NCBI GenBank assembly: GCA_007132975.1
Contig: SLNO01000046.1
Span: 1 to 64,000, forward strand
DNA length: 64,000 nt
Reading direction: 5' to 3'
Source of the DNA: Balneolales bacterium
Lineage (GTDB): Bacteria > Bacteroidota > Rhodothermia > Balneolales > Natronogracilivirgulaceae
Of this stretch, positions 25,959-61,133 are shown one piece after another; the first letter of the stretch is position 1, and each line of letters starts with the position of its first letter. Both the position numbers and the translations under genes were made by a program. The notes beneath the pieces were generated by a model, which was not told the origin of the DNA, did not search any database, and saw only the letters and a list, made by a program, of their open reading frames with translations.

Positions 25959-26798
25959 CTACTCGGCATAAACTCTCACATAGTCTACCAGCATCGTTTG
26001 AGGAAACGGAGTCAGTTGATTGGGTGATCCAACAAAAGTTCCGCCCACTGCTACGTTCAGGATGATGTAGAACGTATTGTGATTAAAAACCCACTCATTG
26101 CTTCCTGTGTCTTCCGGGGTGAATGTGGCGTATTTGGTATCATCCACAAAGAAATCAATGAAATCAGGTCCCCATTCAATCGCAAAAACGTGGAATTTGG
26201 TATCAAACCTGGAGCCGGAAAGCCGGAAACTTCTTGTAATGGCATTACCTGCTGAATAACCGGGACCGTGAAGGCTTCCGTGTACGACGGTTGGCTCCTG
26301 ACCGCGGTACTCCATAATGTCAATTTCACCAATCTGAGGCCAGATAACCGTACCGTTTGAGTCATCACCGAGCAACCAGAATGCCGGCCAGATGCCTTGA
26401 CCGAAGGGCAGTTTTATACTGGCTTCAAAACGACCAAAGGTGGTTTCGAACAGACCTCTTGTGAGAATCTTGGCTGATGTGTATTCAGAACCTTCATAGG
26501 ATTCCCGGCGTGCCGTAATATGAAGCATGCCGTCTTCAACCTTGATATTTTCAGGTCTGTCAGTGTAGTACTGAAGTTCCTGGTTTCCCCAGCCGGGCTG
26601 ACCGAAAATCTCAACTCCGGTGCCAATATCGTGAATCCATTTTTCTGGATTAACACTACCGTCCACGTCAAATTCATCGGACCAGACAAGTCTTGGGAAC
26701 CTTTCATCGTCATCGTTTTGATTGCTGCATCCCCAAACAAGGGATGCAGCAATACATACGATGGCTGTAAACAAAAGAGAGGGATATTTCGATTTCAT
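25959..26798 (-). CDS. GH16 family beta-glucanase lipoprotein
   Basis: SLVWGC lipobox; GEIDIMEYRGQEP catalytic motif; ILNVAVGGTFVGSP. Confidence 0.93.
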   Translation of the reverse strand: MKSKYPSLLFTAIVCIAASLVWGCSNQNDDDERFPRLVWSDEFDVDGSVNPEKWIHDIGTGVEIFGQPGWGNQELQYYTDRPENIKVEDGMLHITARRESYEGSEYTSAKILTRGLFETTFGRFEASIKLPFGQGIWPAFWLLGDDSNGTVIWPQIGEIDIMEYRGQEPTVVHGSLHGPGYSAGNAITRSFRLSGSRFDTKFHVFAIEWGPDFIDFFVDDTKYATFTPEDTGSNEWVFNHNTFYIILNVAVGGTFVGSPNQLTPFPQTMLVDYVRVYAE

Positions 26799-26896
26799 CT
26801 GTTTAAATCAAATTAGATTTAAAAGGACAGAATGAATTCACATGGCAGGATTTAATCATGCTCCTGTGTGTCAGCCGGAGGCTGCCATGTTCATTT
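26796..26896 (-). repeat. Intercistronic leader element, copy 3 (divergent, ~101 bp)
   Basis: Shares CATCTGTTTAAA start, CTGTGTGTCAG core and terminal CAT-TGTTTAAAAT with the two copies at 28320-28513; stem arms changed on both sides. Confidence 0.7.
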
Positions 26897-26909
26897 CATG
26901 TGTTTAAAA

Positions 26910-28322
26910 TCATTCCGCATCTGCATTGAACAGGTAGATATTGTCTACCCAGATCGTTGCGCCTTGCAAAGCCGGACCCTCATCAGAATCAAAGATTATC
27001 TGTCCGAGGTTGGATCTGTTCGCCATACCTCTGATGTCGACAAGAACTCTTACCCACTCGCCTGACACCAGACCGGTATTGCTTCGAACAGTTGCAGATG
27101 CTGAGCTTTCATTCCCGCCGACATTATTCACGATCCTGGCCCTGAAAGCTGATCCCGGTGGAACATCATCAGGCAGGAAGATATGCAGGGAGAGGTGCGT
27201 CATGTTGCTACCATCGATGGTAGGCACATTCTGCCGGAACTCAATGCCTACAAAGTTGAAGTTTTCGTATCCCAGGATGCGATTACCCTCAATTTCAAAG
27301 TCATTTGACGTAGTGGTCTGGAACGGCTCGTAAAAACCGTTGTAGAAGTCCACCGGCACGTCATCATAGAAATCACTGAAGATGGAGATCACATTAGCTG
27401 GGTCCTCGGTGGGAGTGGGTGCAAAAATAAACTCACCCACTGATTCCAACTTAAGGGAACCAATGGCGGGTTGTCCGGCAACTGATGCCGTGATTTCAGC
27501 ATCACCGGCTCCGACAACTGTTACGCGACCTGACTCATCAACCGTTGCGACTGAGGGGTTCGAGGAGTTGAATGAAAAATATGACGGAGCAGCGATAATC
27601 GTCACATCCTGTCCATCCGCCTGATTGATGGTGTAGTTCAGACCTGTAACCTGGGTTCCGGATCCAATAAAGCTGGTCTGGGTAATATCCTGACCGTTAA
27701 AGATTGCTGGACGCGGCTGTGCCAGGGTTGCCAGGTTTTCATACTTCAGCTGGTCAATCCAGAATGTATACCCTTCACCGTTCTCAGGTCCCGCTGCATA
27801 CCAGAACAATCCCCGGCTTTCCCTAAGGAACGAGGCATCAGGAATGGGGATTATGTACTTCCGCCAGTTTGTGGTAAGTCTCAGATTCCTCCGTGATACT
27901 TCGAATCTGTTGCCCAGGAAATCCTGGCCAAAACCAATGTCGCCAAGCGTTCCGCCTCTTGTTGCTTTGGCATAGAAGGTCAGTGCATTGTATGAAGAAA
28001 GGTTTCTTCCTCCAAAATCATCCCTGAAAATGGCACCGGCAAACGCTCCGGCGGGATCTCCTACGTTAGGCACATCAAAGCGCATGGAAGCGCCTCTGTT
28101 GCCGAAAAATACATCCGAATCTACCGAGAAGGCATCTGCTACGGATCCTTCGTAGGGATAGTATTCAAGCCCCGGGCTAAAGCTGTTGATGAAGACTTCA
28201 GGATTGGAAGTAAGATCCGGTTCTGACAATCCATCAACAGAGCGTTCGCAGGCTGCGACGCTGAGCAGCAACAACAAACTTGCCGCCAGGACGGGTTTCA
28301 TATTGTTTATGACTGATTTCAT
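26910..28322 (-). CDS. Surface lipoprotein: two jelly-roll/CBM-like domains around a Big_2-type Ig domain
   Basis: Lipobox LLLLLSVAAC; FWIDQLKYENL and IWVDNIYLF domain ends; central SNPSVATVDESGRVTVVGAGDAEITA (Big_2). Confidence 0.75.
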   Translation of the reverse strand: MKSVINNMKPVLAASLLLLLSVAACERSVDGLSEPDLTSNPEVFINSFSPGLEYYPYEGSVADAFSVDSDVFFGNRGASMRFDVPNVGDPAGAFAGAIFRDDFGGRNLSSYNALTFYAKATRGGTLGDIGFGQDFLGNRFEVSRRNLRLTTNWRKYIIPIPDASFLRESRGLFWYAAGPENGEGYTFWIDQLKYENLATLAQPRPAIFNGQDITQTSFIGSGTQVTGLNYTINQADGQDVTIIAAPSYFSFNSSNPSVATVDESGRVTVVGAGDAEITASVAGQPAIGSLKLESVGEFIFAPTPTEDPANVISIFSDFYDDVPVDFYNGFYEPFQTTTSNDFEIEGNRILGYENFNFVGIEFRQNVPTIDGSNMTHLSLHIFLPDDVPPGSAFRARIVNNVGGNESSASATVRSNTGLVSGEWVRVLVDIRGMANRSNLGQIIFDSDEGPALQGATIWVDNIYLFNADAE

Positions 28323-28550
28323 CTGTTTAAAAAATTTTGATTTATGAGGTCAGATAGAATATTCATGACAATTTTGATCATACGACTGTGTGTCAGTGCT
28401 TCGATCATGAATATTTCATCTGTTTATAATCTTTTGATTTATTTGGTCACATAGAATATTCATGATGATTTTAGTCATAAGACTGTGTGTCAGTACTTCG
28501 ATCATGAATATTTCATCTGCTTAAAATGTTGGATTCATAAGGTTATCTGA
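28320..28550 (-). repeat. 97-bp tandem repeat (2 full copies 28320-28416, 28417-28513 plus partial from 28514)
   Basis: CATCTGTTTA..AATATTCATGA..GACTGTGTGTCAG..TCGATCATGAATATTT repeated head to tail; includes an 11-bp perfect inverted repeat per unit. Confidence 0.9.
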
Positions 28551-31500
28551 ATGTATGTCCTGAATTCCCATTCGTTACCGTTGCCAAAACCGGGAGCGGT
28601 GGGGTCAGGGACAGTTTCACCACTTGCGTCGGTTGTGAATGCCGGAGCATAGCGGGGCGAGAACTCATCCAGAGTACGGTATGTGCCACGTACACCAATG
28701 CGTGTTCGCGGCATGTTGAACCAATCCTGATTGATCAGTGCATAAGACACATCGGCCATGAGCTGCAACGGGAAAGTCAAGTTGAAGTCACGGTGGTAGT
28801 CGTAAGGCCCCCAGTCGTTGACGCGCGCAAATGAATTCAGCATGAGGTTGCGGTAAATGAGGCGCAGGTCACCGCCATAGCGGCTAACGGTACGCGGATC
28901 ACTGCCATTGGCCTGGGCATCACCGCCGTACATCCGGGCAATAATTCCAAAATCAGGGCTCAATCGCGACACAATTCTTGCGTGAACTTCCCACAAGTCT
29001 TTTGCCGGAGGTGCACCGGGGAACGCAAAAGTAGTACGTCCATCAGGAAGGATACCGATGGCAGCATCCTGTGTGGTGGGCAGGTGACGGTAAACAAAGC
29101 CGACACTAGCAGCAAACGGCGAATCCTCGCGGTAATCGTTGTTCCAGTCGAAGAAATAGGTGGCAGGGGTCGGGTCGAAAGTTATCAGCAACTCCCCGGC
29201 AACCATCTCACGGTTGGCACGCACTACAAACGGATCATCGAGGATGTTTCTCGGACGTGCCGCACCACCCGCATCGGCAGGAACGGGACCTTCAATGGGC
29301 TGCTGCCACATGAAGTTTGGTGCGATCTGGAAATTGCCCAACTGATAGGCAATACCCGTGAGTACATTGTACTGGTTACCACTGCCGGTATCCTTGAGCT
29401 GCCACCCTGTGAATGTCATGGTCTGATCATAACCGCCTTGTGCCACAAGGCCCATTATGGCCGACTGTGCATACCAGTTGAAGTTACCACGCTGGAATGT
29501 AAGTTTGATTTTACCACCCCAGTTATCCTCGGGCTTGATTTCGTCAACAAAAACGTTGCTGGATCCGTCGCTGTTTTCACGGTAAATCTGAAATTCACGG
29601 CTCACAAGTGGTCGTCCGGCCCAGATAACACCCGCTTCCACTCCCAGCGGACCGAAATCGCGGCCACCGGCAAAAGTTACACGGCGTGTTTGAGGCTGGG
29701 GAATGGCGAAAGAACTTTCTGCATCACCTTGACGGGCAATATCCTCGTGATAGATGACGGCCATATCCCAGGGGCCCGGCCGGTAGCGATACTTGAGAAG
29801 GAAACCTGGATTGGCACCCCACCAAAGCTGGGGACCAAATGCAAATTTCAAACCACTGAACTGCCTGCGGCCTTCAGCTTCAAAACCGAATGGTGCAATG
29901 CCGTTATAGATATCGATGTTATCGCCGTAATTGGCTTCTGGATAAAGCCCGAAAAAGTCACCTTCATATCCCCAATGATAGCGGCCGGTGCGATAGAATC
30001 CTTCAAGGTTGAAATAGCGGTGATTCCATCTGTAGCTGGCATTGTAAACTTTGAATCGGTTTACATCCTCAAACTCGGTAATGCCTTCAGGTGTAATGAC
30101 CTCTACCGGGCGACCCCTGTTTTCATAGAAAATTTCATCAATCGGGTTCTGAGCTACATTGCCAAGGATATTGAACTGGATTTCGGCATGCATGTCAGGA
30201 GTTGGTTCTGCTTCCAGGCCGATGTAGAAAGACTGCATGTGGTCGAAACCTTGTTCATTTGGAAAACGCCGCACATTCGGATCAGCACTTTCAGGGGTGG
30301 TAATCTTGTTCCCTCCGGTATTGAAGGTTGCAAAATCAGCTGTAAAACGGCTCAGTCGGATTCCGGACAGGCGGTCTACACGCAATGCCGCACGATCACC
30401 CCGGGCCCGCAGCTCCGCATCCATGATATTGATGTTAGCAAAATGACTGTTGATGCTTTCCATCGTGGTACCAGGGGCGTAGACATCAAGCCGATGGGCT
30501 TGCTGCAAAACATAGTAAGCAGCACGTGGGAAAAGCTCAAAATGACCGGCAGCGTTGGTTGGACCCTTGGCCGTGATGCCAAACCACTCTTCGTTCATGT
30601 TGTTTTCACCTTCCACATAATCCCATTGATAACCGCCATTTGCCCATGTGGCTTCTGTATTATGCACATCCAGATCTTCGGTCTGTCCGTGCTTCCACCA
30701 ACCGTCGCTCCACTGGAAAGTAAAGCCACCTATAGAGTTGTTCGCACGTCCCATGCCGGCAGCATTCTGATAAATATCAAGCCAGTTCAGGCGCTTGTAA
30801 TGGGCCTGCATAAGCTGATCTTCCTGGTTGGTCCTGGCATTGAATGAGTCGGAGCCAAATTCCGTCAACAGTACGGGCTTGCCATATTCTGCAGCAACCC
30901 GATCATACAAATCTGTAAAAGTTTCGCCTCTGTATGTGTTGGTGCCAAAAATATCCACATCAGGGGCCAGTTCGACAATCAGCTCCAAAAACAACAAGTC
31001 ACCGTTGCAAAGTGCTATCGGCACATTGTCATCAATCGCTTTCATGGCAACGGCTGCATCGTTGAAGAGCTCATACATTGCTCTGGCCCTGATTGTCGAC
31101 TGCTGATCTTCAACGGGAATATCTTCCGTTTCAGCGCCACCCCAGAACAGGCCGTAGTTGTTTTCATTTCCCAAGAGGAAAAGCAGCAATCCTCTGGTAC
31201 CTTTGAACTCCTCGACCAGTTCGGTTACCTCCCTCAGAAGCAGCTCTTGAACCCTTGGGTCTGAATATTCGGTATTGGCCATCCAGCCGTCATTCAGCAT
31301 CACACCATAGCGACCAAAGGAATGGTTCAGCATGGTATATATACCGAAGTTGTCATAGATGTATTCAACCCACTTTGGTGCAATACCTGTATAAACCCGG
31401 ATTGCGTTTACGTTCATATTACGCAGCAGGCCCATTTCATAGTCCAGAGCGTTTTTAATGAACTGGTCTGGCTTACCCCAGAAATCGTATTCATAGTTGG

Positions 31501-31678
31501 TGCCGATCGGGAAGTAATCCCAGTTCATACCGTTGATCATTAACGGCTCACCATCCACAAGCATGCGCCAACCATCAGCACGCTCTTCCAGTTCCACGCG
31601 GCTGGCCTGAGCCATCGTCGATGCAGATATGCATGTTATCATCGATAACATGAAAAATAGTTTGCTTAGTCTATTCAT
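28535..31678 (-). CDS. Clan GH-A glycosidase fused to a C-terminal outer-membrane beta-barrel-like domain
   Basis: Signal peptide; GH motifs LLGNENNYGLF and VLLTEFGSDSF; ~600 aa C-terminal half with alternating amphipathic strands (RWNHRYFNLEGFYRTGRYHWGYEG, GNFNWYAQSAIMGL, ...EWEFRTYIQITL). Confidence 0.7.
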   Translation of the reverse strand: MNRLSKLFFMLSMITCISASTMAQASRVELEERADGWRMLVDGEPLMINGMNWDYFPIGTNYEYDFWGKPDQFIKNALDYEMGLLRNMNVNAIRVYTGIAPKWVEYIYDNFGIYTMLNHSFGRYGVMLNDGWMANTEYSDPRVQELLLREVTELVEEFKGTRGLLLFLLGNENNYGLFWGGAETEDIPVEDQQSTIRARAMYELFNDAAVAMKAIDDNVPIALCNGDLLFLELIVELAPDVDIFGTNTYRGETFTDLYDRVAAEYGKPVLLTEFGSDSFNARTNQEDQLMQAHYKRLNWLDIYQNAAGMGRANNSIGGFTFQWSDGWWKHGQTEDLDVHNTEATWANGGYQWDYVEGENNMNEEWFGITAKGPTNAAGHFELFPRAAYYVLQQAHRLDVYAPGTTMESINSHFANINIMDAELRARGDRAALRVDRLSGIRLSRFTADFATFNTGGNKITTPESADPNVRRFPNEQGFDHMQSFYIGLEAEPTPDMHAEIQFNILGNVAQNPIDEIFYENRGRPVEVITPEGITEFEDVNRFKVYNASYRWNHRYFNLEGFYRTGRYHWGYEGDFFGLYPEANYGDNIDIYNGIAPFGFEAEGRRQFSGLKFAFGPQLWWGANPGFLLKYRYRPGPWDMAVIYHEDIARQGDAESSFAIPQPQTRRVTFAGGRDFGPLGVEAGVIWAGRPLVSREFQIYRENSDGSSNVFVDEIKPEDNWGGKIKLTFQRGNFNWYAQSAIMGLVAQGGYDQTMTFTGWQLKDTGSGNQYNVLTGIAYQLGNFQIAPNFMWQQPIEGPVPADAGGAARPRNILDDPFVVRANREMVAGELLITFDPTPATYFFDWNNDYREDSPFAASVGFVYRHLPTTQDAAIGILPDGRTTFAFPGAPPAKDLWEVHARIVSRLSPDFGIIARMYGGDAQANGSDPRTVSRYGGDLRLIYRNLMLNSFARVNDWGPYDYHRDFNLTFPLQLMADVSYALINQDWFNMPRTRIGVRGTYRTLDEFSPRYAPAFTTDASGETVPDPTAPGFGNGNEWEFRTYIQITL

Positions 31679-55211: not shown

Positions 55212-56855
55212 ATGCACCTGAAAGCGACCAAATCTTTTATTCAGCGATACGGAACAACCCTGAAAATCTCCAGGATCACACAATGGGTCTCTCCCCTGAT
55301 TATTTTCGCCATTTTCTTTCTGCCATTGATGCCAGCCGGAACATTGGACGCTGATGCCAGACCGCAGCCGGTGAGGGTCCATGAAACCCTCATGGAAATA
55401 CCGGACATCCAGGCGCTGACCAGCAGCGAAGCCCATTTGTATGTTCTCTCAGGACGGGAGGGGCTGGTGGTGTTCCGTACGGGAACCGAATCACTGCAAT
55501 GGCTCTATTCCTCGTCCGGCTTGTCAAACAGGGGCAATCGGCTGATAACCGACATCCGTTTTTCTTACCTCTTCGGCCGGGATGGCAGGTTGACGATCAT
55601 CGAACCAACATCCGTGCTCGGCGTGTACTCATCCACCCAGCTTGCCAACGACCCGAACGACCTGGTCCGAATCGGCAACGACCTGTTCCTTGCCGACGGT
55701 GAGGCCGGACTTCTCCGCATATCCCTGGAAACGCAGGAGTCGGTCGACCAGAATCCCCAGACCGCATTTTCCCACAGCAGGCCCATCCTCTCGCTGGAAC
55801 GCATTTCCAGCCAGCTTTTTGCCCTTGACGACCAGGCACGGCTGATGCTTTTCGAACACGGCGATGGCGAACTTTCTGAAAGCGGCAGTTTCCAGCTGCC
55901 TCGGGGCGCCTCGCAGCTTCACGTCATTGCAAACCGGCTCTACATGACCGCTGAAAACGGAACCGTTTACCGCATCCGGTCGGATGGCCGCACCGATGAG
56001 CTCTTCCGCATTGAAGAACCGGTAGCCGCACTGGAGCGCTGGAACGAGAACTACCTTATCCGTGGTGAAAGCAGCCGCATATGGATCGCCCGGCAGGGAC
56101 TGCGTCCCACACTCTTCCGCGAAGACCCTTCCGCCGGCAACCATATGACCGTCTTCAAAAACCAGCTTTGGATCAGCGAACACCGGCAGTTGAGCCGCTG
56201 GGATGATACCGGCCTCATCGCCACCATGCCGGATACCGCAATGGACGGCCCGGATGGCGCAACCACCCCTGTTCGCTCCGGTGACAGCGGCGATGCCCTG
56301 CGCATCACACCGGTTTCCGACCGCGTCATCCCCTATCCCCGTCCCCTGCTTATGCCCTTTTCGCTGGAGAGCGGCCACGACCTCAGCCAGGTCACTTTCC
56401 AGCAGCGGTCACGCATTGACGCCATTCGCATCCGCGGCAACGGCCTGTACTGGCAGCCCTCGTCATCTGATATCGGTTCGCACCCCGTCACGATCATCGC
56501 CAGCACTCCGGACGGCCAGACCGACAGCACCACGTTTTCCATCACCGTGCGGCCATTCAACAGCCCGCCTCGTTTCTCCCCGGTGCGCACTATTTCCATT
56601 CCTGTGGATGAAGAGTTCACCATCCCGATCCAGGCCAGGGACCCCGACGGCAGCGACGCCAGCCTGATCCGGTACATTGGCGTGGACCTCCCCGACGGCG
56701 CCTCCCTCAATGAGCAGAGCGGCCGTTTCCAATGGACCCCCACGCGCCGCCAGACAGGTGAGCACGAATTCCAGGTTATCGCCACCGACCAGTACGGGGC
56801 CGCATCCTCCATGAACGTCACCGTAGTGGTAGTAGACCTGAGCCGTGCTGACTGA
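55212..56855 (+). CDS. Secreted protein: beta-propeller-like region plus putative Ig/cadherin-like (He_PIG) domain
   Basis: Hydrophobic N-terminus; repeated YVLSGREGLVVFRTG / LFLADGEAGLLRIS blades; NSPPRFSPV...ARDPDGSDA...LPDGASLNEQSGRFQWTPTRRQTGEHEFQVIATD. Confidence 0.7.
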   Translation: MHLKATKSFIQRYGTTLKISRITQWVSPLIIFAIFFLPLMPAGTLDADARPQPVRVHETLMEIPDIQALTSSEAHLYVLSGREGLVVFRTGTESLQWLYSSSGLSNRGNRLITDIRFSYLFGRDGRLTIIEPTSVLGVYSSTQLANDPNDLVRIGNDLFLADGEAGLLRISLETQESVDQNPQTAFSHSRPILSLERISSQLFALDDQARLMLFEHGDGELSESGSFQLPRGASQLHVIANRLYMTAENGTVYRIRSDGRTDELFRIEEPVAALERWNENYLIRGESSRIWIARQGLRPTLFREDPSAGNHMTVFKNQLWISEHRQLSRWDDTGLIATMPDTAMDGPDGATTPVRSGDSGDALRITPVSDRVIPYPRPLLMPFSLESGHDLSQVTFQQRSRIDAIRIRGNGLYWQPSSSDIGSHPVTIIASTPDGQTDSTTFSITVRPFNSPPRFSPVRTISIPVDEEFTIPIQARDPDGSDASLIRYIGVDLPDGASLNEQSGRFQWTPTRRQTGEHEFQVIATDQYGAASSMNVTVVVVDLSRAD

Positions 56856-57927
56856 CGCTGACCGGAAAACGCTCCTTGACTGGTACCGTCGCATGCGCCG
56901 CGACCTGCCCTGGCGCCGGACCGGCGACCCCTACCGCATCTGGATCTCCGAGATCATGCTCCAGCAGACTCGGGTGGATCAGGTCCTGCCCTACTACCAG
57001 CGCTTCATGGCACGATTCCCCGATGTCACCTCGCTGGCCCGAGCCGACCTGGACGAGGTGCTCCGGCTGTGGGAAGGCCTGGGCTACTACTCCCGCGCGC
57101 GCAATATGCACAAAGCCGCCCGCCAGATCGTTGACCGACACGCAGGCCGCTTCCCCGACACCCACGAAGAGGCAATCGCCCTGCCGGGCATCGGTCCCTA
57201 CACCGCCGCCGCAATACTCAGCATCGCCTTTGGCCAGCCATGGCCCGTGGTGGACGGCAACGTCATACGCGTGATCAGCCGGCTGTTCGGCATCGGGGAG
57301 GATGTGCGGCTGGGTTCGGTGCAAAAGACCATCGCCCGTCACGCCGCGGAACTCCTTGACCGCGAAAATCCCGCCGATTTCAACCAGGCGATGATGGAAC
57401 TGGGCGCCACCGTGTGCACCCCGGCCGCCCCGTCCTGCTCGTCCTGCCCGCTTCAGGAGCGGTGCCACGCCTTCCGGCACAACGCCACTGATCAATACCC
57501 GTACAAATCCCCGGCCAGAAAACGTCCGCACCACCACATTGCCATTGGGGTGGTACGCGATACCAGCGGACGCCTGCTCATCGCCCGGCGCCCCGATCAC
57601 GCCATGCTGGGCGGACTCTGGGAGTTCCCCGGCGGCAAGCAGGAAAAAGGCGAGGCCCTGCGCGATACCGTGCGCCGCGAACTTGGTGAGGAACTCGGGG
57701 TGGATGTGGATGTGGCCCCCAAGCCGTTCCGGGTAGTTCGCCACGCCTACAGCCACTTTACCATCACGCTCCACGCATTCCACGCGACATTGAAGGACGG
57801 CTCCCCGCATCCCGAAGCACAAAACGGTGAACCGCTTCGCTGGGTGGCCTCCGATGAACTCACCGAGTACGCTTTTCCGAAAGCCAACCGCTTGATCACC
57901 GAGACACTTATGGAACAGGGCAGCTGA
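56845..57927 (+). CDS. mutY: A/G-specific adenine glycosylase
   Basis: GTG start; HhH LPGIGPYTAAAILSIAFG; FeS cysteine cluster; C-terminal NUDIX-like EFPGGKQEKGEALRDTVRRELGEELG. Confidence 0.95.
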   Translation: MLTDADRKTLLDWYRRMRRDLPWRRTGDPYRIWISEIMLQQTRVDQVLPYYQRFMARFPDVTSLARADLDEVLRLWEGLGYYSRARNMHKAARQIVDRHAGRFPDTHEEAIALPGIGPYTAAAILSIAFGQPWPVVDGNVIRVISRLFGIGEDVRLGSVQKTIARHAAELLDRENPADFNQAMMELGATVCTPAAPSCSSCPLQERCHAFRHNATDQYPYKSPARKRPHHHIAIGVVRDTSGRLLIARRPDHAMLGGLWEFPGGKQEKGEALRDTVRRELGEELGVDVDVAPKPFRVVRHAYSHFTITLHAFHATLKDGSPHPEAQNGEPLRWVASDELTEYAFPKANRLITETLMEQGS

Positions 57928-58982
57928 TGGCGACGCGCAGATCGGCCCGCAAACACGGCAACAAACGATCGGCCCGCAACGCCCGCGACGCTCGACCGGA
58001 TGAAGCCCGGCTCCTCCCGCTTCCGGACGAACGGCTTACGGAGTTGCGGCAGTTCCTGGATCCTGTGATCGGACAGGTGGAGGAACCGGGATACGTTGCC
58101 ACTGATCCGGTCGCTTTCATGCATCAGTTTGACAGCGCAGAGGACAAAAACCTCGCCGGCTTCCTCGCGGCGCTTATGGCCTGGGGGCGCCGCGATATCG
58201 TCATGGCCAAAGTCGGCAACCTGCTGGAACGCTTCGGAACCAATCCCGCCGATTTCATCGGCAATCTCACCAGCCGCGACGAGCAACGGCTCGAAGGGTT
58301 CCGGCACCGGACTTTCACCGCCGACGATGTGCGGTGGCTTCTTCGGGCGCTTTCACGGATTCTGAATCAATTTGGTAGTTTTGAACAGTTCTGGGTGGAT
58401 TGTCATTTCCAAAGCCTTGGCGACAGGCGCGCTGGAAACCGCGCTGAAAGCCGCAACATAATATCATCCACCGAAATCCACACTGCAAACCTCTCGGGAA
58501 GTCACACCGAAAGCCGCACCGCTATCCGCATCAGGAAGTCCACCAAAAGCCACATCCATATCCACCCTGAAGCTGCCAGGCTTCTCACCGAGTTCCATGA
58601 GCGCTTTTTTGAGCTGATCCCCGAAGGCCCGCAACGGGTCCGGAAACACCTGGCCACACCGGTGAAAAACAGCTCCTGCAAACGGTTATGGCTCTATCTG
58701 CGCTGGACACTCCGCCGGGAAAGCTGCGTGGATCCCGGGACCATGTCGTTCATGCCGCCCTCCGGGCTGATGATCCCGCTGGATGTGCACGTGGCCCGCT
58801 ACGCCCGTATGTTCGGCCTTATCACCCGCAGGGCCAACGACTGGAAGGCCGTGTCGGAACTCACAACGCGCCTGCGCCTGATGGATGCCGCTGATCCTGC
58901 GAAATATGATTATGCCCTGTTCGGCCTTGGCATCCGCGATATCCCCATCCCGCCCGAATTCGTGATCAACCCGCGTGTGTGA
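57927..58982 (+). CDS. TIGR02757/DUF2400 family protein
   Basis: SCKRLWLYLRWTLRR, LMIPLDVHVARYARMFGL, DPAKYDYALFGLGI; TGATG overlap with mutY. Confidence 0.88.
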   Translation: MATRRSARKHGNKRSARNARDARPDEARLLPLPDERLTELRQFLDPVIGQVEEPGYVATDPVAFMHQFDSAEDKNLAGFLAALMAWGRRDIVMAKVGNLLERFGTNPADFIGNLTSRDEQRLEGFRHRTFTADDVRWLLRALSRILNQFGSFEQFWVDCHFQSLGDRRAGNRAESRNIISSTEIHTANLSGSHTESRTAIRIRKSTKSHIHIHPEAARLLTEFHERFFELIPEGPQRVRKHLATPVKNSSCKRLWLYLRWTLRRESCVDPGTMSFMPPSGLMIPLDVHVARYARMFGLITRRANDWKAVSELTTRLRLMDAADPAKYDYALFGLGIRDIPIPPEFVINPRV

Positions 58983-59066
58983 CGGCACGGCCGTATCCAA
59001 TTTGGTCGACAGGACGTGTGGTGAATGGCCGGAGATGCCATTCTGCCAAACGGACGCGGCGTTCGG

Positions 59067-61133
59067 TTATGCCCTGGCCAGGACTTCCTCCAGAGCAGCA
59101 TCGAACCGGCCCTGGACCTCTTCCAGGCGGGCTGCGGCCTCCGTCCAGTTGTCCCAGCTGCGCTCCAGGCGGCGTTCCAGGTCGCCATGGCGCTTGAGCA
59201 CGGACTGGGCATCACCCGACTCATAAAATTCGGGATCGGCCAGCTGCTGTTCGATTTCGGCTTTCTCGTTTTCCATGAGGTCGATTTCCTCTTCCAGGCG
59301 CGCCAATTTCGTTTTGAGCGGTTTCATATCCCGGCTGAACCGGTTGCGCAGTTCAGCTTCGGCGCGCTTGAGTTCCCTGGACTTGGGTCCGCTGCCTCCC
59401 GCATCCTTTTCAACCCGGGATGCGCCCGGCTCGCGGCCCTGAGCGGCCTGTCCCTGAGCCGGATCTGCAGCCGCGGCCCCTCCGGTCTCCCCGGCCGCTT
59501 TCTGTTCGCGGAATTTCCACTCATAATAGCTGAAATCGCCCGGGTATTCGAACAGCCGGCCGTCGCCCACGCGCCAGACCTTGTTGGCGAACCCGCTGAG
59601 GAAGTAGCGGTCGTGGCTAACGGCCACAACCGTTCCCTGGTACTGCTCAAGCGCCCTGAGCAGTACCTTCTTGGAGCGAATGTCCAAGTGGTTGGTCGGC
59701 TCATCCAGAATGAGCAGGTTGGCCGGTTCCAGCAGGCTTTTGGCAAGCGCCAGACGGCTACGTTCGCCCCCGCTCAGCACCCCGACCTGCTTGAAGACAT
59801 CGTCGCCTGAAAACAGGAAGGCTCCGAGGATGCCACGGATCCGGGATCTCGCCTCTGAAGTCCTGGCCGAGGCCTCCATCTCCTCCAGCACTGTCCGTTC
59901 CGATGTGAGCACATCGGCCAGATGCTGGGCGAAGAAGGTCATGATGACATTGTGCCCGGGCACCCGTTCACCGTCAAACGGTTCGGTCCCGTTAATAATG
60001 CGGGCCAGTGTCGATTTTCCGGCGCCGTTTGCCCCAACCAAAGCAATCTTGTCACCGCGTTCGATGGCCACGTCCTGGTTTTGTGTAAAAACGGCAACCG
60101 GCTCCTCCCGGTCAGTTCGGTAGGTCTTGTTCAGACCGCGCAGCTCCATGACCTGCACTCCGCACGAAGGCGGATCGGGAAATCGAAAATCTATGGAGGT
60201 TGTGTCCTCCTCGGGCATTTCGATGCGCTCGGTCTTCTCAAGCTGCTTGATCCGGCTCTGCACCTGCCGCGCCTTGGTTGCCTTTGCCCGGAACCGGTTG
60301 ATGAACCGTTCGGCCTGCTCCAGTTCACGCTGCTGGTTTTCCCAAGCCTGGCGCTGCAGTTCAAGCTGCTGCTGATACTGCTTTTCATAGGCATCATAGT
60401 TGCCCTTGTAGAGCGAAAGGCGGCGGTTTTCGAGTGCAGCGATATGCGTGACCATTCGGTTCAGGAACATCTGGTCGTGGCTGACGATCCAGATAGCCCC
60501 GGGGTATCCAGGGAGGTACCGCTCCAGCCAGTCGATGCTGTCGATATCAAGGTGGTTTGTTGGCTCATCGAGAAGCAGGATATCAGGCGCCTCGAGAAGC
60601 AGCCGTGCCAGGAGCGCTCGCATCTGCCACCCGCCGCTGAAGGTATGCAGCGGCTCATCCAGTTCATCCGGTGCAAATCCCAGTCCTCTGAGCGTCTCCT
60701 CGACCCTTGCCTGGCGCTTGCCTCCATCCAGCATTTCGAAACGGTTCTGAAGGGCCTCCAGCGTCGACAGAAGTTTCGGGTACGCCGTGTCGTCATAAGA
60801 ATCCAGCTGACCGATGGCCGTTGTTGTTTCCGCAATCCTGCGCTCCAGGTCGTTGGCCTCTCCAAAAGCCTGCAGCACCATCGAACGCACCGTCTCCTGG
60901 CGTGAAACTTCCAATGATTCCTGCTGAAGATAGCCGATCCTGGTCCCCGAAGACCATTCGCAGGCGCCTTCGTCCGGTGTGAGCGCACCGGTCATGATGC
61001 GCAACAAGGTCGTTTTTCCCGCGCCATTTGGCCCGATCAGGCCGATCCGGTCCCCTTTTTTGAATGTGAGGGAAACCTTATCGAAAAGACAGCGATTTGA
61101 TATAAAAAATGTTATATTATGAAGTCTATACAT
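59067..61133 (-). CDS. ABC-F family ATPase
   Basis: Two ABC domains (GPNGAGKTTLL, GANGAGKSTLA; LLLDEPTNHLDI twice) and coiled-coil C-terminus. Confidence 0.93.
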   Translation of the reverse strand: MYRLHNITFFISNRCLFDKVSLTFKKGDRIGLIGPNGAGKTTLLRIMTGALTPDEGACEWSSGTRIGYLQQESLEVSRQETVRSMVLQAFGEANDLERRIAETTTAIGQLDSYDDTAYPKLLSTLEALQNRFEMLDGGKRQARVEETLRGLGFAPDELDEPLHTFSGGWQMRALLARLLLEAPDILLLDEPTNHLDIDSIDWLERYLPGYPGAIWIVSHDQMFLNRMVTHIAALENRRLSLYKGNYDAYEKQYQQQLELQRQAWENQQRELEQAERFINRFRAKATKARQVQSRIKQLEKTERIEMPEEDTTSIDFRFPDPPSCGVQVMELRGLNKTYRTDREEPVAVFTQNQDVAIERGDKIALVGANGAGKSTLARIINGTEPFDGERVPGHNVIMTFFAQHLADVLTSERTVLEEMEASARTSEARSRIRGILGAFLFSGDDVFKQVGVLSGGERSRLALAKSLLEPANLLILDEPTNHLDIRSKKVLLRALEQYQGTVVAVSHDRYFLSGFANKVWRVGDGRLFEYPGDFSYYEWKFREQKAAGETGGAAAADPAQGQAAQGREPGASRVEKDAGGSGPKSRELKRAEAELRNRFSRDMKPLKTKLARLEEEIDLMENEKAEIEQQLADPEFYESGDAQSVLKRHGDLERRLERSWDNWTEAAARLEEVQGRFDAALEEVLARA

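Follow-up and report, generated by a model that had tools for sequence, protein, structure and literature searches.

Repeats at start codons of Balneolales genomes are very probably copies of a tiny, folded, non-autonomous mobile element

The window, that is the whole 64,000-nucleotide stretch of Balneolales DNA that was analysed, carries between 21176 and 36000 GH16, GH17-like and GH-barrel genes clustered with lipoprotein and MFS sugar-transporter genes, which probably form a locus for the utilisation of beta-glucan; within 56001-60000 its G+C content climbs from about 0.48 to 0.62. Genes encoding, according to Pfam, a GH2-barrel protein, a Big_2 lipoprotein and a GH16 enzyme are separated by repeats on the minus strand: two 97-nt tandem units and a third copy of about 101 nt, each terminating in TTTAAACAG-ATGAA of the downstream gene. 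They were found as the preliminary description had reported them, in position, size and ending at the downstream ATG. The features are the following.

28318-28322, minus strand: 3' ATGAA of the array, i.e. start codon and beginning of codon 2 of the lipoprotein gene (26910-28322)
28323-28414, minus strand: unit A, 92 nt between ATGAA copies (covariance model, 110.3 bits)
28415-28419, minus strand: ATGAA common to units A and B (direct reading)
28420-28511, minus strand: unit B, 92 nt, sharing 88% identity with unit A (sequence comparison; covariance-model match at 28414-28521)
28512-28516, minus strand: 5' ATGAA of unit B (direct reading)
28517-28544, minus strand: truncated 3' end of an additional, fourth unit, holding the TGA stop of the GH-barrel gene (28535-31678) (direct reading and comparison)
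26794-26798, minus strand: ATGAA at the 3' side of unit C, where the GH16 lipoprotein gene (25959-26798) starts
26799-26894, minus strand: unit C, 96 nt, CATGGCAG/CTGCCATG subtype (covariance model, 99.7 bits)
26895-26899, minus strand: 5' ATGAA of unit C (direct reading)
26900-26912, minus strand: remnant, about 13 nt, of a fifth unit's 3' end (TGATTTTAAACAC), holding the TGA stop of the lipoprotein gene (comparison with unit ends)

Read along the minus strand, the array at 28.3-28.5 kb is ordered stop-containing remnant, ATGAA, unit B, ATGAA, unit A, ATGAA of the gene, and the copy at 26.8 kb is ordered remnant, ATGAA, unit C, ATGAA of the gene. The partial unit earlier seen to run into the preceding stop corresponds to the truncated unit containing the GH-barrel stop; since the stops of both upstream genes (28535-28537 and 26910-26912) lie inside truncated remnants, old units have been turned into gene ends. 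The covariance model recovered the window units at E values of about 1e-17 to 1e-19, while no Rfam covariance model matched any of them at E<=1. A 23-bp hairpin, 87% complementary, is located at 26710-26765, in the part of the GH16 gene that encodes the signal peptide, with a weak Rfam match to mir-1824, far below the gathering score.

Comparison of the array with the whole genome produced 44 matches. A covariance model built from 65 units detected at least 145 units in the same genome (G000), a lower bound because scoring covered 150 candidates in each genome, along with 71 and 38 in G013 and G017, respectively, two relatives with better assemblies; the search of relatives advocated in the preliminary description did yield further copies. 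The genomes compared are mostly fragmented MAGs, whose contigs break in or beside units (L017, L018, L014, L015, L048, L190), so that copy numbers are underestimates. The element is present in all 10 genomes of the genus and in most of the family, and is almost absent elsewhere in the order. A conserved 22-base pattern, compared to GTDB genomes, matched Balneolales/Balneolaceae MAGs (isolates CSSed and DLM2, names which we take to indicate an origin in soda-lake sediment) and one contig labelled Nealsonbacteria, which is probably misbinned. No unit match was found in viral contigs, searched with the exact pattern, nor in plasmids and phages, and no earlier account of such repeats in Balneolales was found in the open-access papers searched.

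RNAalifold returned no structure on the raw alignment; the fold was written by hand and then scored by pair counts. The supported elements are a 10-pair outer stem, a short inner helix and a 3' hairpin of 8 pairs; this hairpin joins an internal TTC(T)AT[C/G]TG to the terminal CA[G/C]ATGAA, and its 3' arm holds the downstream start codon. Only at the 5' end does the outer stem begin 1-2 nt from the terminus; the partner of the 3' end is the internal arm. For the 65 units of the window's own genome, 90.6% of cells are paired and 93 are double-changed, against 38 in shuffles; pairing falls to 27-42% in slid controls. For 113 units from other genomes the corresponding values are 92.2%, and 127 against 51 in shuffles; the model was derived from the 65-unit set and then guided the alignment of the 113 units, which biases the 92.2% towards this structure. 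The strongest single signal is given by a pair of the 3' hairpin in which C-G and G-C replace each other (27:24 and 40:47); its C or G in the internal arm agrees with the downstream end of the same unit in 56 cases and disagrees in 13, and does not follow the upstream end. These counts bear out the earlier proposal that compensatory stem changes reflect a selected structure, and at the same time shift its location: a CUG-ACACA-CAG mini-hairpin had been taken as the conserved core, while the best support falls on the outer stem, the inner helix and the 3' hairpin, which had been missed. G-U and A-C mismatches are nearly equal (38:29 and 34:29) and do not single out the sense RNA; for this reason selection may act on the fold in DNA, in RNA or in both.

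Units end at the 3' side with TTTTAAACA[G/C]ATGAA, and ATGAA nearly always occurs at the 5' side too, single-unit sites included. The bases preceding the 5' ATGAA are unrelated between sites, those preceding the 3' ATGAA are constant. Among 374 units in 242 arrays the 5' copy is mostly ATGAA, and the orientation relative to ATGAA is always identical. The length of the duplication is fixed at 5 bp by the pfk locus, where the native sequence is ATGAACAGC, the 5' copy reads ATGAA/ATGTCC and the 3' copy is again ATGAACAGC; this locus shows A to be the first base of the element and ATGAA the duplicated sequence. A sixth base, as in ATGAAC on both sides at purQ, was considered and dropped, pfk and other loci having ATGAAA at the 5' side and ATGAAC or ATGAAT at the gene. 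The flanking pair may derive from a staggered-cut duplication or from an ATGAA brought by the element, and the comparison fits both.

A 19-20 nt extension, C[CT]GAA[GA]GTC[GA]CGAAG[CT]G, is interposed between ATGAA and some units (L178, L180, L217, L230 and G017:C3 near 417.7 kb), and its reverse complement is found in the 3' arm of other units (L214, L219, L230), hence the outer stem may have been longer in the past. L178 and G017 contain repeats of the extension. The outer stem of extended copies appears to run on to ATGAAC...GTTCAT, the two extended arms lying in different copies, which would place the target sequence at the foot of the stem.

At the purS-purQ junction G001, G003, G004, G005 and G009 have a short native spacer without a unit, while G000, G006, G007 and G008, as well as G012 and G013 from other genera, have 1-3 units, all ending exactly at the purQ start; within the genus five of the ten species listed are thus empty, four carry one to three different units and one is not assessable. 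The same presence/absence pattern is seen at topA and thrA, with the native upstream region still recognisable at the latter. At nine loci of the window's genome that carry a single unit, empty sites were reconstructed by fusing the two flanks at one ATGAA, and these were searched in nine sister species. Matches spanning the junction run unbroken into real sites at metK (nine sister-species loci) and, in several sister species, at mdh, gnd, pfk and a hydrogenase subunit gene; in the clearest cases (hydrogenase subunit, mdh, metK) zero native bases are missing. Both target-site duplication and empty sites, the hallmarks looked for in MITEs, are present.

Arrays were evaluated by comparing adjacent units, which are 77.5% identical against 76.0% for random pairs. 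Adjacent units being as dissimilar as random ones, arrays grow by new insertions and not by tandem duplication. Across genera, 6 of 19 sampled unit-bearing genes of G013 have unit-bearing orthologs among the 62 sampled in G000, and such sharing is commoner than chance; the best pairs of units at these sites are 61-76% identical, against a random between-genome mean of 64%. The lack of excess likeness at shared sites, together with the patchy purQ pattern, suggests hot spots or repeated retention; in general, the same genes carrying units in different genera could reflect hot spots, selective retention or old insertions.

In the window's own genome 60 of 85 assessable array ends (about 71%) open an ORF of at least 60 aa at the terminal ATG, as do 99 of 135 in other genomes; arrays at contig edges were left out and gene calls are simple ORF calls. 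As a baseline, 89 of 293 ATGAA pentamers outside coding sequence (about 30%) are located at gene starts, which makes starts over-represented more than two-fold. Loss of insertions landing in coding DNA accounts for part of the pattern, and the rest may reflect either preference or selection. The remaining 30% or so of array ends are away from any recognisable gene start. Downstream genes are unrelated (topA, thrA, metK, purQ, ispF, mdh, gnd, hydrogenase and others): 61 downstream proteins match 112 Pfam families, none of which occurs in more than two members. A four-codon ORF is created at the 5' ATGAA in 120 of the 168 arrays having one. This ORF and the 3' hairpin holding the start codon point to effects on translation, and a regulatory side effect on the genes landed on is likely.

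On this basis the leader repeat is one of at least 145 dispersed copies of a tiny folded mobile element, not a surface-protein leader. From genome comparison we infer mobility, and the unit, of about 92-100 nt, is very probably a non-autonomous, site-specific element aimed at start codons. It occupies ATGAA in a single orientation, with ATGAA on both sides and the native upstream sequence complete; the 3' ATGAA serves in about 70% of cases as start codon for the downstream gene, which keeps its start and gains a new leader. Repeated independent insertion at the same ATGAA generates arrays. We favour site-specific recombination or guided cleavage as the reaction, in which the internal TTCAT-containing arm would hold the ATGAA end and the same five bases would thus be common to the element's end and the target. 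After insertion, the native start would open a mini-ORF of four codons (ATG AAA TGT CCA TGA or similar), and the gene would be initiated from the 3' end of the element, with its ATG in a hairpin and its expression probably altered. The mobilising enzyme would act in trans: a half-unit search of the loci examined and of 0.79 Mb of G017 detected no autonomous copy, and no transposase or recombinase among those examined is tied to the element. A bolder and tentative proposal is that these repeats represent a class of folded elements whose complementary arm recognises ATGAA, homing to starts genome-wide and swapping host leaders wholesale, with a mobiliser not yet recognised as a transposase.

Other explanations have to be compared with this one. 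The preliminary description regarded the repeat as a control element for surface-protein genes; more generally, a cis-acting RNA leader controlling translation, stability or processing, kept at selected genes, would fit the fixed sense orientation, the covarying structure, the start codon within a hairpin and the presence of units at some genes in more than one genus. However, no gene class is shared downstream, units are missing at the same genes in sister species, ATGAA is duplicated on either side, some 30% of array ends are not at a recognisable gene start, units at orthologous sites are no more similar than random ones and the mismatch counts give no clear preference for RNA of one strand. 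The surface-protein role is not borne out, given the first three of these observations, and a cis-acting leader of any kind is unlikely. Local tandem duplication with gene conversion as the only process would explain the adjacency and the 88% identity of units A and B, but is hardly credible in view of the genome-wide dispersal, the clean empty sites, which already contradict it, and adjacent units as different as random ones.

Within the mobile-element explanation, a tyrosine recombinase, integron-like or other, may move the folded site with ATGAA as shared crossover. This is a rather doubtful candidate mechanism: in its favour are the 5-bp core that the target has in common with the element, the directionality of insertion, the growth of arrays at this core, the extended copies with ATGAAC...GTTCAT arms and the occurrence of integron integrases in the order, but few carriers have true integron integrases, which are also found in families without units, the carrier genome gives only Xer-like scores, and no unit adjoins the two complete family integrase copies inspected. 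IntI above cutoff is present in 2 of 13 family genomes (with contig-end fragments in a few more) and in non-carrier families; complete integron integrases of some Balneolales (L353 of G006, L356 of G012) are, as far as seen, unrelated to units. Quite unlikely is a REP-like element moved through single-stranded hairpins by a Y1 (IS200/IS605, RAYT) transposase, the internal arm guiding cleavage at ATGAA. Hairpins close to the end, an internal arm complementary to the terminal ATGAA, an orientation fixed relative to a short target and the absence of classical terminal inverted repeats would agree with it, but Y1_Tnp is absent from the carrier genome and from 11 of the 13 family genomes searched. 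Y1/RAYT transposases, as well as reverse transcriptases (RVT_1), were each found in none of the own genome's sequences and in 2 of 13 family genomes, these being incomplete MAGs. Y1 transposase, reverse transcriptase and integron integrase were all rejected as mobiliser, their distribution not fitting that of the units; a retroelement, either group II or RT-driven, was likewise set aside, the host reverse transcriptase that it calls for being absent from the window's genome.

The bcr1/BCR repeats of the Bacillus cereus group are interspersed non-coding sequences of 100-400 bp, confined to one bacterial group, with up to 130 copies for bcr1 (PMC6542083). They are nearest in kind, being likewise interspersed, non-coding, restricted to one bacterial group and flanked by repeats of one fixed short motif, TTTAT in bcr1 and ATGAA here. 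Comparing by description, sequence and host phylum differ, the target ATGAA coincides here with start codons and supplies the 3' arm of the covarying hairpin, and renewed insertion into one site produces head-to-tail arrays. Bacterial MITEs (Correia/NEMIS, RUP, ERIC) are non-coding, about 100-200 bp long and present in high copy, form stable transcript hairpins and mostly have target-site duplications (PMC2229807). Our units are similarly short, non-coding, abundant, hairpin-forming and flanked by a target-site duplication, but differ by having no TA-bounded terminal inverted repeats, a fixed 5-bp target, ATGAA, a fixed orientation and start-codon placement. REP elements are palindromic, present in high copy and often clustered (PMC3733652). 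These features are shared by the units described here; in contrast to REP/RAYT systems, most carriers have no Y1 transposase, there is no GTAG/CGTC tag and the 97-nt unit has two hairpins. MITEs and REPs thus share some traits but fail defining ones. Integron attC sites are imperfectly folded repeated sites growing in arrays, and folded repeated sites and array growth are found here as well; the units are not tied to an integrase or to gene cassettes, and lie upstream of resident housekeeping genes.

Small mobile repeats without coding capacity are common, but a start codon used as target and rebuilt by duplication is an elegant solution for life in a densely packed genome: insertions in coding DNA are lost, while those at start sites leave the protein intact and change the leader only. 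The finding raises a concrete question, namely which enzyme moves the element. It would also supply a natural, genome-wide set of leader swaps, in which filled and empty sister species can be compared at metK, purQ, topA and other genes.
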